This document shows positions 31,250 through 62,566 of a stretch of 64,000 nucleotides of DNA, piece by piece (positions within the stretch are counted from its first letter, which is position 1; the number at the start of each line of letters is the position of its first letter). Location of the stretch: NCBI GenBank assembly GCA_944325635.1, contig CALVBD010000001.1, positions 62,001 through 126,000 on the forward strand, read 5' to 3'. The DNA comes from Candidatus Gastranaerophilales bacterium (GTDB lineage Bacteria > Cyanobacteriota > Vampirovibrionia > Gastranaerophilales > Gastranaerophilaceae). The notes under the pieces were generated by a model. The model was not told the DNA's origin. It did no database searches and worked only from the letters and a program-made list of their open reading frames with translations. Position numbers and translations under genes: made by a program.

Positions 31250-31250
31250 T

Positions 31251-32000
31251 TTAGTAGCTTACCTTATATGGATAATCATCAGGTATTGTCCATCCGTTAA
31301 GCTGGATGACAGCAGTGCAATATTGAGGCTTTGAATTTTTACACCATTCTTTTAATTGTGCCTCGTTCCCGTTCCAGCTAAATTTATAAGGTTCAAAGGT
31401 ATTTCTTCCCTGATTGTATGCAGTCCCGGCTGTCGGGGCAAAAATAAATGCAAATGCTCATTTCCCCCAGCTGTTTTTATCTGACCCGTAGAGTTTTAAA
31501 CATTTTTCCGGAGTTGTTGTGTAGAACATCCAGTCACGCATTCCACTGGAACTCCCGTCTATAATTGAACGTCCTCTCATCTCAAGTGCCGTTCCGTCAG
31601 CAAAGTAGAATATTGGAAGCCCTGAATCGGCATACTTTCTCTCAACTACTTTCATATGTTCGCCGATGTATTTGTTAAACCATTTTTCAGCTGTTGAAGA
31701 ACCGGGAACAGGATTTCCTTCACTATCCTTTTCTACAGTTCATGAGTCTGTGTACCAGTAGTTTCTATCCCCGTATTTGGCTTCAGAGAGCATAATTGCC
31801 TGATTAATATTTGTGTAAAATTTTTTAAGCTTTGCTTCAACTGTGGTTTTTGAGTTATTTTGAATTAATCCCAGCAGTGTGAGTGAAGCAACAACGCCTA
31901 TAATCCCAAGTGTAATAAGAACTTCCGCCAGTGTAAATGCATTTTTAATCTTATCTGAAGATAATACTTTTTTAGTATAAGTAAGACTGTACTTTTGCAT
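31251..32000 (-). pseudogene. Prepilin-like gene with two in-frame TGA codons
   Basis: From the ATG at 32000 (GGAGGG just upstream) one reading frame of 250 codons runs to TAA at 31251, broken only by TGA at 31740-31742 and 31458-31460. The N-terminus has a type IV prepilin motif NAFTLAEVLITLGIIG, and the following parts (FADGTALEMRGRS, DWMFYTTTPEKCLKLYG, CTAVIQLNGWTIPDDYPYK) read as normal protein on both sides of each TGA, with no frameshift. A recent pseudogene is the simplest reading; TGA decoding in this gene is the alternative. TGA ends at least four other genes here, so it is a normal stop in this genome. Confidence 0.75.
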
Positions 32001-37721: not shown

Positions 37722-37882
37722 TTGAAAATTATGTGCACAGGTCTTATAATATAGATATCTAAAGGATATATAAAGTACATCTAATGTGAATAAATGTAAA
37801 AGAATTATAGAAAAAGATTAAAGAGAAGTACAGATATCCCGATAGGCTATTGGTGAAGCAGAAAGAATAGCGAGGATTTGGT
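37722..37882 (+). promoter_or_regulatory. Adhesin promoter and 130-nt leader
   Basis: TTGAAA (37722-37727), 17-nt spacer, TATAAT (37745-37750), then about 130 nt before the ATG at 37883. The leader is A-rich with a weak foldback near CCGATAGGCTATTGG and GAGGA six bases before the ATG. I see no known riboswitch in it. The rest of 37608-37721 holds nothing I can identify. Confidence 0.6.
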
Positions 37883-40800
37883 ATGAGAAAGAGTGATGGT
37901 GTAAATTCGCTTATAATAAGTGTTTCGGGGGGGGGGGGGGGGGCATACTAAAACGGCTTCTCTGTGCTAGTTTACTTGGACTTACAATCCTTGGAGCTAA
38001 TGCTGCAGAGTTTATTCAAACACCGACACTCGGGGAGGATAGTGCTTATACGTTGACTGAGGCTTCGGAGGCTGGGGTTGACAGTTTGACGATTTATGAG
38101 CTGAAGGATAAGATTGGGAGCTATTCATATGTGGATAAAAACGGTCATACAGTTACAAAAACATATACGACAGTGGAAGCCTTGCCGCATTACTATGATA
38201 TGATAATAACTGCGCAATCTGCCGAAAGCTTTGCAAACTCGGACGCAATTGGCAATGTTGTTGATCATTTTATTGGGCAAACTGATACTGCAGGTGGTGG
38301 TATATATAACACCGGAACAATAGCAGGAATAACTGGCGATTTTATAAATAACACAGCAGCTGGTAGTTATGGTGGTGGTATTTTTAATTATAATGGCACT
38401 ATTGGACCTATAACCGGAGATTTCATAAATAATTCAGGAGCTTACGGAGGAGCAATTGCGAGTTATGGAGGTGAATTAACATCTATAACAGGTAATTTTA
38501 TAAATAATACTGCCACAAATGGGTATGGAGGAGCAATTTTTGAAACTTCTGCAACTGATATAGATTTTATTAGTGGGAATTTTATTGGTAATGTGTCACG
38601 AGAGGGTGGTGCTATTTATAGCTATTATGGTAAAGTGAATTCTATAGAAGGGAATTTTATTAATAATTATTCATCTGGGCGTGGCGCGGGTATTTACAAT
38701 TCTCATAGTGAAATAGGGGATATCACTGGTAATTTTATTGAGAACAGTGCAGATTCTGATGGTGGAGCTATAAATAACAATATAGAAGGTGTAATAAATT
38801 CAATAAGCGGAAACTTTATAAATAATACATCTTCAACTCAGGGCGGTGCAATATCGAGTTTGAACGAAATAAAAAATATAACAGGTTATTTTTCAGGTAA
38901 TTCTGCTGCGGGAAGTGGTGGTGCAATTATTACCAGTGGTTTAATACATACAATAAACGGCATATTTATAAATAATTCTGCAGAAAATGGTGGTGGTGTC
39001 CTAAGTAACTATATTCATGATACGATAGCCGGAGAAGGTCTGGTCAAAAGTATTTCAGGGGAGTTTATCAGAAATACTGCTGAAAATGGCGGAGTTATAG
39101 GAAACCATACTAATGGCACAATAGAGAATCTTAGTGGTAATTTTATCAAGAATAGCGCGAGACATTACGGCGGTGTCATCGATAACTATGACAATGGAAC
39201 GATTAAAAATATAACTGGCGCATTCCTGCGAAATACCGTGGCATCTGATTCAGAGGATGTATCAGGCGGCGCTATAAGTAACGATAGCGCCACAATCGGG
39301 AATATTGTGAACAGCGATTTTATTGATAATTCTGCTGTGAGCGCAACCGGCGAAGCATTTGGCGGTGCAATCTACAGTAACGGTGGAAGTGTAACATTAA
39401 CGGCAAAAGACGGTTATACCTCCACATTTAAAGGCAACTATACAGAAAGCGCCGGTGAACGCAAAAATAACGCAATATATCTGACCGGCGATGCTGTAAT
39501 GGATTTCAAAATGGAGAACGGCGGAAAATTCCTGATGGCAGACGGAATCGACGGCACGGACTACAAGTTGAGCATAACCGGCGATGATATCTCAAAAACG
39601 AGATTCTACCTGTATAACACAATAAACAGCGGCGATGTAACGCTTTCGAATACCACAATAGATATGGTAAACCGTCAGATTGCCGTGAACACAGTGAACA
39701 ACCTGACAATCGGGAGCGACACAAACCTTGCGGCAGACGTGGATCTGGCGAATAAAACAATGGATAGATTCACATCCCCTGCATATGGCACACATAGCGG
39801 CAACTTAACCGTATCCTCCGTAAACCTGCTATCAGACGGAAAAGAGAACGTAACCGCAGTACTATTTGCGGATGAAGGGCTAAAAGATAACGCGGGAACC
39901 ACGGTAAAAACAGCATATACTCCAATTTACAAATACGATGTCAGCTACGATAACCGCGATGACGCAGGCTATATGCTCTTTACGCGCGGCGGCGCAGGCA
40001 GTAATTCACCGGATTCGTATAACCCGGCCGTTTTGAATGGAGCCGTCTCAACGATAGCCGCAGGTCAGGCAACAATAAACGAAACCTTTAAATATGTATT
40101 TGAACACGCTGACGCGTTCACTCAATTGCCGGCAGTAGAACGTATGGCGCAGATTAAGAACGACTACTATGCCTTAAGCACGGACTACAATACTAATTTG
40201 GATGGCTTGGGCGGCTTGAATGGCGGCCTTGCGCCGGAATTCCACAACGACGGCGCGTGGGTAAGACCATACGTAACCTTTGAAACAATGAACCTTAAAA
40301 ACGGCCCTGATGTCGATGCAATCACTTACGGAACCCTCATCGGCTTTGATAGTGACTTTGAGGACTTCGGCCATGGCTGGACAGGCGTCACAACAGGATA
40401 TGTGGGCTACAACGGCTCCCAATTAAGCTACTCGGGCAACGACACGAGTATGAACGGCGGCTTACTCGGTTTAACACAAACCTTCTATAAAGGCGACTTC
40501 TGGACAGCAATCACAGCCTCTGCCGGCGCCTCAGTAGGTGAAACCAGCACAATGTACGGAAGCGAAGATTTTACCTCACTTCTTGCAGGTATCGGCTCAA
40601 AAACAGGCTATAACTTTGAATTTAAAGAAGGGAAATACATCCTTCAGCCTATTATGTTCTTATCCTACACATTTGTAAACACATTCGACTACACCAATGC
40701 CGCAGGCGTGAAAATCGAATCAGACCCTCTGCACACAATCCAATTAAACCCTAGCGTGCGATTCATAGCAAACCTTAAAAACGGCTGGCAGCCGTATGCG

Positions 40801-41097
40801 TCAGTGGGAATGGTTTGGAACCTCTTGAACCAGACAGATACGACAGCAAACGACATTTCGCTTCCTGACATGCACGTAAAACCTTACGTTGAATACGGTT
40901 TGGGTGTCCAGAAACGCTGGGCGGATAAGTTTACTGCGTTCTTCCAGACGATGATAAGAAACGGCGGGCGAAACGGTGTCGCTTTGACTGGCGGTTTCCG
41001 CTGGAACCTTGGGAAAGACCCTGACGAGACAGTAAACACCGAAAACAAAGTCAAAAAAGTTATTAAGAGCCTCAACAGCAGAGTCGCTGGGAAATAA
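37883..41097 (+). CDS. Pmp-like autotransporter adhesin, out of frame at a 17-G tract
   Basis: About 1070 residues if the G tract is in frame. The ATG at 37883 has GAGGA six bases upstream. Fifteen codons later come 17 G (37927-37943), then a signal-peptide core (ILKRLLCASLLGLTILGANA). With 17 G the ATG frame ends at TAA right after the tract; 15 or 18 G would join it to the long frame. The passenger has over ten repeats like ITGDFINN..A..GGAI, as in chlamydial polymorphic membrane proteins. From about base 40020 a C-terminal beta-barrel follows (WVRPYVTFET..GGFRWNLG), with a basic 24-residue extension. Bases after about 39300 are richer in G+C and C-ending codons than neighbours. Confidence 0.85.
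37927..37943 (+). repeat. 17-G homopolymer tract
   Basis: Seventeen consecutive G inside the signal-peptide coding part of the adhesin. Slipped-strand mispairing here would switch the gene ON (15, 18 G) or OFF (16, 17 G). The exact count may also suffer from sequencing error. Confidence 0.95.
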
Positions 41098-61677: not shown

Positions 61678-62566
61678 TTATTTCTTTAGCTCATCGCCTA
61701 TATTGTGCGGCGTATAGTATAGTTTATCTGTTGTTAATGTTTTGTTTAATTGGGTTGTAGATATTGATAATTTCCCGTTACTTGTTATATTGAAGCGGTA
61801 GACGTCGGCTCCGAACTGATTAGGCCCTTTTAATGGGCCATTGGCATCAAAGTAAATGTTAGCGCAATAATCTACTGTTGTTGTAATGGTATCAGGGATG
61901 CCGTCCTTGTCTTCATCCACAAAGTATCCGTTTTCATCTCTTTTATTATATGTTTGTTCTCTAATGCACTGGTTATACTGAGTAAGATTGTATGAAGCGC
62001 CGTTTGATGCTATAAAAAACGGTGGCATAAATCCGTCTCCATTCTGTATAACACCATAACCATTATTGACTGGAGTATTACCTTTTATTTCGTAATACTT
62101 GCAAATTTTTTCTTTCGAACCGGCTTCACAATATTTTGCACCTTTAAATTGCTCAAACAGTTTTTTGGTTAAATCTTCTTTAGTGCTATTTAAGTCAGAA
62201 ATACAACTTATATCGGAACAGTCATGTTTTGCCGCATACATTTTCAATGCATTCTGAAGTTCTGAATAAGTCTTTTTTACCTGAACTACAAGAACCTTTT
62301 CCTGATATTTGGCAACAAGTGTTGGCAGTGTCATTGCTGCAATTATACCGATAATTCCCAGCGTAATTAGAACCTCAGCTAATGTAAAACCGTTTACTTT
62401 ATTCCTAAATATAAAAGCGTTCCCAATGGAAAACGACTTGAAAAAAGCCGTGCGCTCATTAAATAGCCGTGAAAATAATTTCTTAAAAATTCGTTCTTGA
62501 GTAGCGTTCTGACTAAGGAAGCCCCCCCCCCCTTGTTTGTAATTCAATTATATCAAGGGTTTTCAT
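61678..62566 (-). CDS. Prepilin-like protein, out of frame at an 11-G tract
   Basis: The ATG at 62566 has AAGGAG at 62574-62579, the best start in the area, but after eleven codons a run of 11 G (minus strand, 62522-62532) shifts it into a stop (CTT CCT TAG). The long frame, open from a TTG at 62547 with no ribosome site, encodes VNGFTLAEVLITLGIIGIIAAM and a 210-residue globular domain with six cysteines and a DEDKDGIPD calcium-like loop. With 10 or 13 G the ATG would be joined to it. The leader before the pilin motif is unusually long (about 60 residues) for a prepilin. Confidence 0.8.
62522..62532 (-). repeat. 11-G homopolymer tract
   Basis: Eleven C on plus, eleven G on the coding strand, directly after the start region of a prepilin gene. 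A likely slippage site; the count may be affected by sequencing. Confidence 0.95.

Follow-up and report, generated by a model that had tools for sequence, protein, structure and literature searches.

Poly-G tracts preceding an autotransporter gene and dozens of prepilin genes in Candidatus Scatousia suggest phase variation with an OFF default

In a genome of the genus Candidatus Scatousia (Gastranaerophilales), a tract of 17 G residues stands between the ATG of an autotransporter gene and its signal-peptide sequence. With 17 G the gene is out of frame and OFF. The tract is one of a genome-wide set of such tracts, here called gates; most precede prepilin genes and most are OFF. The arrangement is probably a reversible genetic ON/OFF switch that works by slipped-strand phase variation and has a built-in OFF default. 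From the sequences, we infer that the switching occurs in DNA.

The window (the whole stretch of DNA analysed, 64,000 nucleotides) contains two gates. The parts of the autotransporter gate and gene, in window coordinates, are as follows.

37722..37750, plus strand: putative sigma-70-like promoter, TTGAAA-17-TATAAT, with 11 of 12 consensus matches
37872..37876, plus strand: Shine-Dalgarno sequence GAGGA inside GCGAGGA, conserved in homologues
37883..37926, plus strand: ATG and 44-nt leader 5' of the G17 tract, the start confirmed by an ungated orthologue in genome G001
37927..37943, plus strand: G17 tract (the gate), counted exactly from the sequence
37945..38004, plus strand: ON-frame Sec signal peptide ILKRLLCASLLGLTILGANA, from inspection and alignment with the G001 orthologue
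37945..41097, plus strand: ON frame of the putative autotransporter adhesin, 1050 codons, with POMP/Chlam_PMP repeats in the passenger
37949..37951, plus strand: TAA ending the 22-aa OFF product, in the reading frame set by 17 G
40252..41010, plus strand: predicted C-terminal 12-strand beta-barrel translocator, from the AF2 model and Foldseek

A preliminary description of this DNA had reported the G17 tract, the ATG at 37883, the GAGGA and the TTGAAA/TATAAT promoter, and each is found where it was placed. The frames also read as described: a TAA comes right after 17 G, and 15 or 18 G open a frame of over 1000 codons, which we measure as ~1070. The 17 G allele encodes a 22-aa product (MRKSDGVNSLIISVSGGGGGAY) ending at the TAA at 37949-37951, and tracts of 9, 12, 15, 18 or 21 G would give products of 1068–1072 aa. 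As at contingency loci, the frame is set by a long uninterrupted repeat near the 5' end of the coding sequence, and an intact full-length product exists at another repeat number (the 1050-codon ON frame; the ungated orthologue). Runs of 17 or more G are expected ~1e-6 times per genome of such composition. The next longest G run on the same strand of the window is 5. All other G runs in the window are of 5 or fewer, except one 11-mer on the opposite strand (62522-62532), which is also a gate. No Rfam elements besides tRNAs were found in the window.

Comparison with related genomes identifies the start codon. In G001, which belongs to the same genus, a full-length orthologue (75% identical) is without the G run, and its matching ATG leads straight into the signal peptide (MRKVCCAKYPQRLNSVIKGLLAVSLLGL...). 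In G005, two homologues carry G10 tracts with different leader lengths, and both are out of frame. The comparison thus agrees with the earlier assignment of ATG 37883 as the start, and makes the tract an additional segment that separates the leader from the signal peptide. In the ON frame, there is no ATG, GTG or TTG before position 38053, which is 3' of the signal peptide. Initiation at an internal start 3' of the tract was ruled out; the ungated orthologue starts at the matching ATG. Internal starts were likewise ruled out for the prepilin gates described below, many of which leave no space for one, with as few as 10 nt before the mature pilin. The earlier proposal that the gene is OFF and has the anatomy of a contingency locus is borne out. 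The ungated orthologue, the two G10 OFF homologues and ~45 similar gates genome-wide speak against a fixed assembly error as the whole explanation.

The gene had been named an autotransporter adhesin. Its passenger contains POMP repeats that score above cut-off (TIGR01376, E=5e-11; PF02415). The last 351 residues of the ON-frame protein are modelled by AF2 as a helix and 12-strand barrel (mean pLDDT 66.9, moderate confidence), and the top Foldseek matches of the barrel model (BrkA, EspP, Hbp, AIDA-I and NalP) are autotransporter translocators. The barrel is assigned from this fold match; PF03797 gave no sequence match in the ON-frame protein, and no solved relative of the barrel was found by sequence. 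A Sec signal peptide, recognised by inspection, and the C-terminal helix plus 12-strand barrel of the moderate-confidence model correspond to a type Va autotransporter. This predicted identity is well supported. The role as an adhesin is one that we infer.

The second gate of the window precedes a prepilin gene.

61678..62520, minus strand: prepilin read in the second gate's ON frame (N_methyl, GFTLAEVLITLGIIG; PF07963, TIGR02532)
62522..62532, minus strand: G11 tract of the second gate, OFF, before the prepilin
62533..62566, minus strand: start codon ATG of the second gate and its 34-nt leader, with GGAG upstream

The genome has 56 tracts of G8 or longer, against ~4.1 expected, and 48 of G10 or longer, against ~0.14 expected. 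The tracts were studied in the sequence stretches surrounding them. Forty sit between a leader with Shine-Dalgarno sequence and ATG and a prepilin that bears the FTLAEVLITLGIIG motif. The class III motif for cleavage and methylation, GF-T-L-A-E, is present in the window gene, which matches PF07963 and TIGR02532, and the pattern occurs in 82 genes of the genome, so about half of its prepilins are gated. Leaders of ungated prepilins are usually 4–8 aa long; the median for gated prepilins is 22.5 aa, including the G codons. Gated genes other than pilins are surface genes: an RgpF-type gene (OFF), a Stealth gene (ON) and autotransporters. In G006, the closest genome tested (83% nucleotide identity over two window genes), reading by eye shows gates before a gene that resembles glycosyltransferases (ON) and one that resembles autotransporters (OFF). 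Two tandem homologous genes at locus L039 (G000 C1:29975 and 30950) have internal tracts at the same place (IHGGGATQLLFGIKGSRWD), one G11 and out of frame, the other G10 and in frame. The window also holds an ungated prepilin on the minus strand (31250-31970). It has a normal start (MQKYSLTYTKK...AFTLAEV) and looks like a pseudogene because of two in-frame stops.

In the genomes sampled, gates of this kind are confined to one part of the order. Among 192 genomes drawn from the Gastranaerophilales, 41 have prepilin gates, and all belong to one family; 22 genomes from six other families of the order have none. One genome with a tract, G002, is the congener Candidatus Scatousia excrementigallinarum, in which locus L185 (DVIU01000086) corresponds to the tract at C28:8943.

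Few gates are in frame. We counted the 150 prepilin gates with a clear Shine-Dalgarno sequence and ATG, and 14 (9%) were ON, against an expected 1/3; the p value of 7e-12 overstates the independence of the data, because the loci are related by descent. The neutral ON:OFF ratio is 1:2 (PMC4965091). In the source genome, 2 of the 37 gated prepilins with a Shine-Dalgarno-backed start are ON, and so both ON and OFF alleles occur. OFF gates fall into +1 (75) and −1 (61) classes. Tract length is typical of the lineage: G11 in the source genome, where it accounts for 30 of 40 gated prepilins, and G10 or G9 elsewhere. Flank length differs, such that the usual tract length is OFF. The modal share of 75% is tighter than free slippage predicts, published C. 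jejuni rates giving ~43%. In the assembled frame, 78% of OFF gates meet a stop within 4 codons, compared with 41% for the third frame and 38% for shuffled sequence. The ON-frame bodies are open in 38 of 40 gated prepilins although these are OFF, which argues that the genes are maintained. Taken together, the open bodies and the frame and stop statistics suggest that gated genes are kept while their common state is OFF.

Tract length varies between related gates. Flanks are at least 80% identical in 26 pairs of gates, and in 8 of these pairs the tracts are one G apart; assembled near-identical gates often differ by 1–3 G. For example, L126 is G12 and in frame (ON), and the near-identical L186 is G13 and out of frame (OFF). 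Tracts L133 (G11) and L171 (G12) have leaders that are 100% identical, and tandem prepilins of G007 with near-identical flanks have G12 and G10. The sole full-locus match between G000 and G006 (398/400 nt downstream) is G11 in both. A search of viral contigs for strains gave no matches. Contig ends are common within ~150 nt of gates, as at L296/L297 (G007 C9/C11), L299/L300 (G146 C43/C71) and the starts of G002 and G007 contigs; in G007, 5 of 31 listed tracts are no more than 250 nt from the start of a contig, against ~0.2 expected. The cause may be mixed tract lengths or a loss of reads at poly-G.

Slipped-strand phase variation fits the anatomy of the gates, the classes of gene, the ±1 differences and the occurrence of some ON alleles. 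Mispairing during replication would gain or lose single Gs, and each change would shift the ATG leader into or out of frame with an exported surface protein. The G17 tract would then be the OFF allele of the autotransporter adhesin. It would be one gate of a genome-wide set, belonging to Candidatus Scatousia and its family, that comprises ~40 prepilins, at least one autotransporter and several genes for surface polysaccharides. Tract lengths would change at a high rate in populations, rare ON cells would express the proteins, and the OFF default might be selected, for instance by immunity or phage. Switching ON mostly requires insertion at G9 and deletion at G11–13. In C. jejuni, insertions are favoured at G8-9 and deletions at G10-11 (PMC8224891); at G9 and G11–13, our analysis thus broadly matches this bias. 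Conversely, 33 of 39 G10 gates require insertion for ON, which runs against the deletion bias of C. jejuni at G10.

Against phase variation stand the tight lengths, the 9% ON fraction, the conserved OFF frame and stop, and mutS1, whose presence should make slippage slower. Uniform lengths, the conserved OFF frame and mutS1 leave room for programmed transcriptional slippage, the main rival and in our view an unlikely one. RNA polymerase or the ribosome would slip on G9–G13 and yield an in-frame fraction in every cell, the DNA being constant and deliberately out of frame. This would account for one tract length per lineage with 91% of gates OFF, for the excess of 0-frame stops within 4 codons and for bodies that stay open despite being OFF, and it agrees with the presence of mutS1. 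It does not account for alleles that are ON at the DNA level, for length differences between near-identical gates, or for the existence of G17 and G15 alleles. The +1 and −1 classes are awkward for a ribosomal frameshift but not for RNA polymerase slippage; ribosomal frameshifting as the sole mechanism was rejected because both classes are found. A wider reading, possible though doubtful, is that the gates are a dedicated portable expression module, purposely out of frame, with output via programmed slippage in every cell and/or leader exchange at the tract. On this reading, the pilins as a whole would form a low-level or combinatorial reserve instead of a set of ordinary contingency loci.

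Leaders do appear mobile or unusually variable. Where prepilin bodies of G000 and G006 are 88–98% identical, their leaders are often different. Two orthologous loci have 22-nt leaders that cannot be aligned, between flanks that are 93% and 85% identical. In the 22 nt before the tract of L128 and L194, leader peptides of exactly equal length diverge far faster than neighbouring sequence. RgpF, a prepilin and other genes share one leader (ATTATAGCTTCAAAACTCAGA then G10/11), and two G146 contigs share the 66 nt 3' of G10 and G13 but differ in their 5' halves. Prepilin bodies that are 100% identical over hundreds of nt also occur between species (L062/L291, L073/L286, L043/L266). Housekeeping DNA of these species is 83% identical, which points to recent exchange of pilin genes; the gates differ between the same species. 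The sequences suggest that leaders are either exchanged or very fast evolving. The shared leader, the unalignable leaders, the G146 contigs and the 100% identical bodies would suit a tract that is mainly a recombination junction, swapping 5' leaders among surface genes with frame a by-product. We nevertheless consider this very unlikely, because it leaves the OFF bias and conserved 0-frame stop unexplained, and many pairs are identical through tract and leader.

An RNA structure may also be associated with the gates. In 60% of gates, compared with 7% of ungated prepilins, there is an anti-Shine-Dalgarno-like CUCC box, typically 5-35 nt 3' of the gate. It pairs better with its own Shine-Dalgarno sequence than with permuted ones (z ~ −5.8), a test that relatedness inflates, so the hairpin is a lead only. 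Folding suggests that the box can pair with the G tract instead of the Shine-Dalgarno sequence. An invertible element flanked by Shine-Dalgarno/anti-Shine-Dalgarno repeats was rejected; in this genome's prepilin gates, the G is always on the coding strand.

Finally, an assembly or sequencing error hiding a tract that is really in frame, or a decaying pseudogene, is highly improbable: G17 is difficult to read accurately and MAG contigs often end near such tracts, but the 1050-codon frame is intact, the homologues are likewise gated and OFF, and 40 further gates, including easily read G9–G11 tracts, have the same one-sided frame bias in many independent assemblies.

Phase variation at poly-G tracts is best compared with Campylobacter jejuni NCTC11168, which has 29 poly-G/C loci of 7 or more (PMC4965091, PMC8224891). 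In both systems, the frames of surface genes carry long G tracts close to where they begin, a single-base indel would switch the frame, and the number of loci is similar. They differ in that the gates here have mostly one length per genome, a strong OFF default and a conserved stop, precede mainly prepilins, and occur with mutS1 in an uncultured lineage of the cyanobacterial phylum. Homopolymeric 5' tracts reversibly inactivate inlA and swrA (Orsi et al. 2010, PMC2831843). Those too lie just past the start codon and leave a short truncated peptide when OFF, but are short poly-A tracts in single genes; here G9–G17 tracts serve dozens of genes with a common leader design. In Helicobacter pylori, the RepG sRNA targets the tlpB G-repeat, whose length tunes sRNA binding (PMC8295292). 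That variable repeat is also in the 5' part of a surface-related gene's mRNA but in its untranslated leader, whereas the tract here is translated and sets the frame. The chlamydial Pmp/POMP proteins are autotransporters that share the POMP repeats of the passenger, but belong to another phylum, and the barrel here is recognised by fold and not by PF03797. Chlamydial pmp genes have G tracts too.

In the open-access library that we searched, we found no earlier description of such gates in this lineage. Switching at poly-G tracts is familiar from other groups, but that library appears to hold no account of the lineage, the prepilin scale, the OFF default or the common design of the gates. Dozens of gates with a strong OFF bias look like a large repertoire of random on/off switching. 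If so, a common uncultured gut lineage of the cyanobacterial phylum would match or exceed C. jejuni in the size of its poly-G repertoire, which would be OFF by default and consist chiefly of type IV pilins and adhesins. About half of the genome's prepilins would appear start-less or frameshifted to ordinary gene callers. Surface variation of these commensals could then be predicted from sequence and tested in metagenome reads that already exist.
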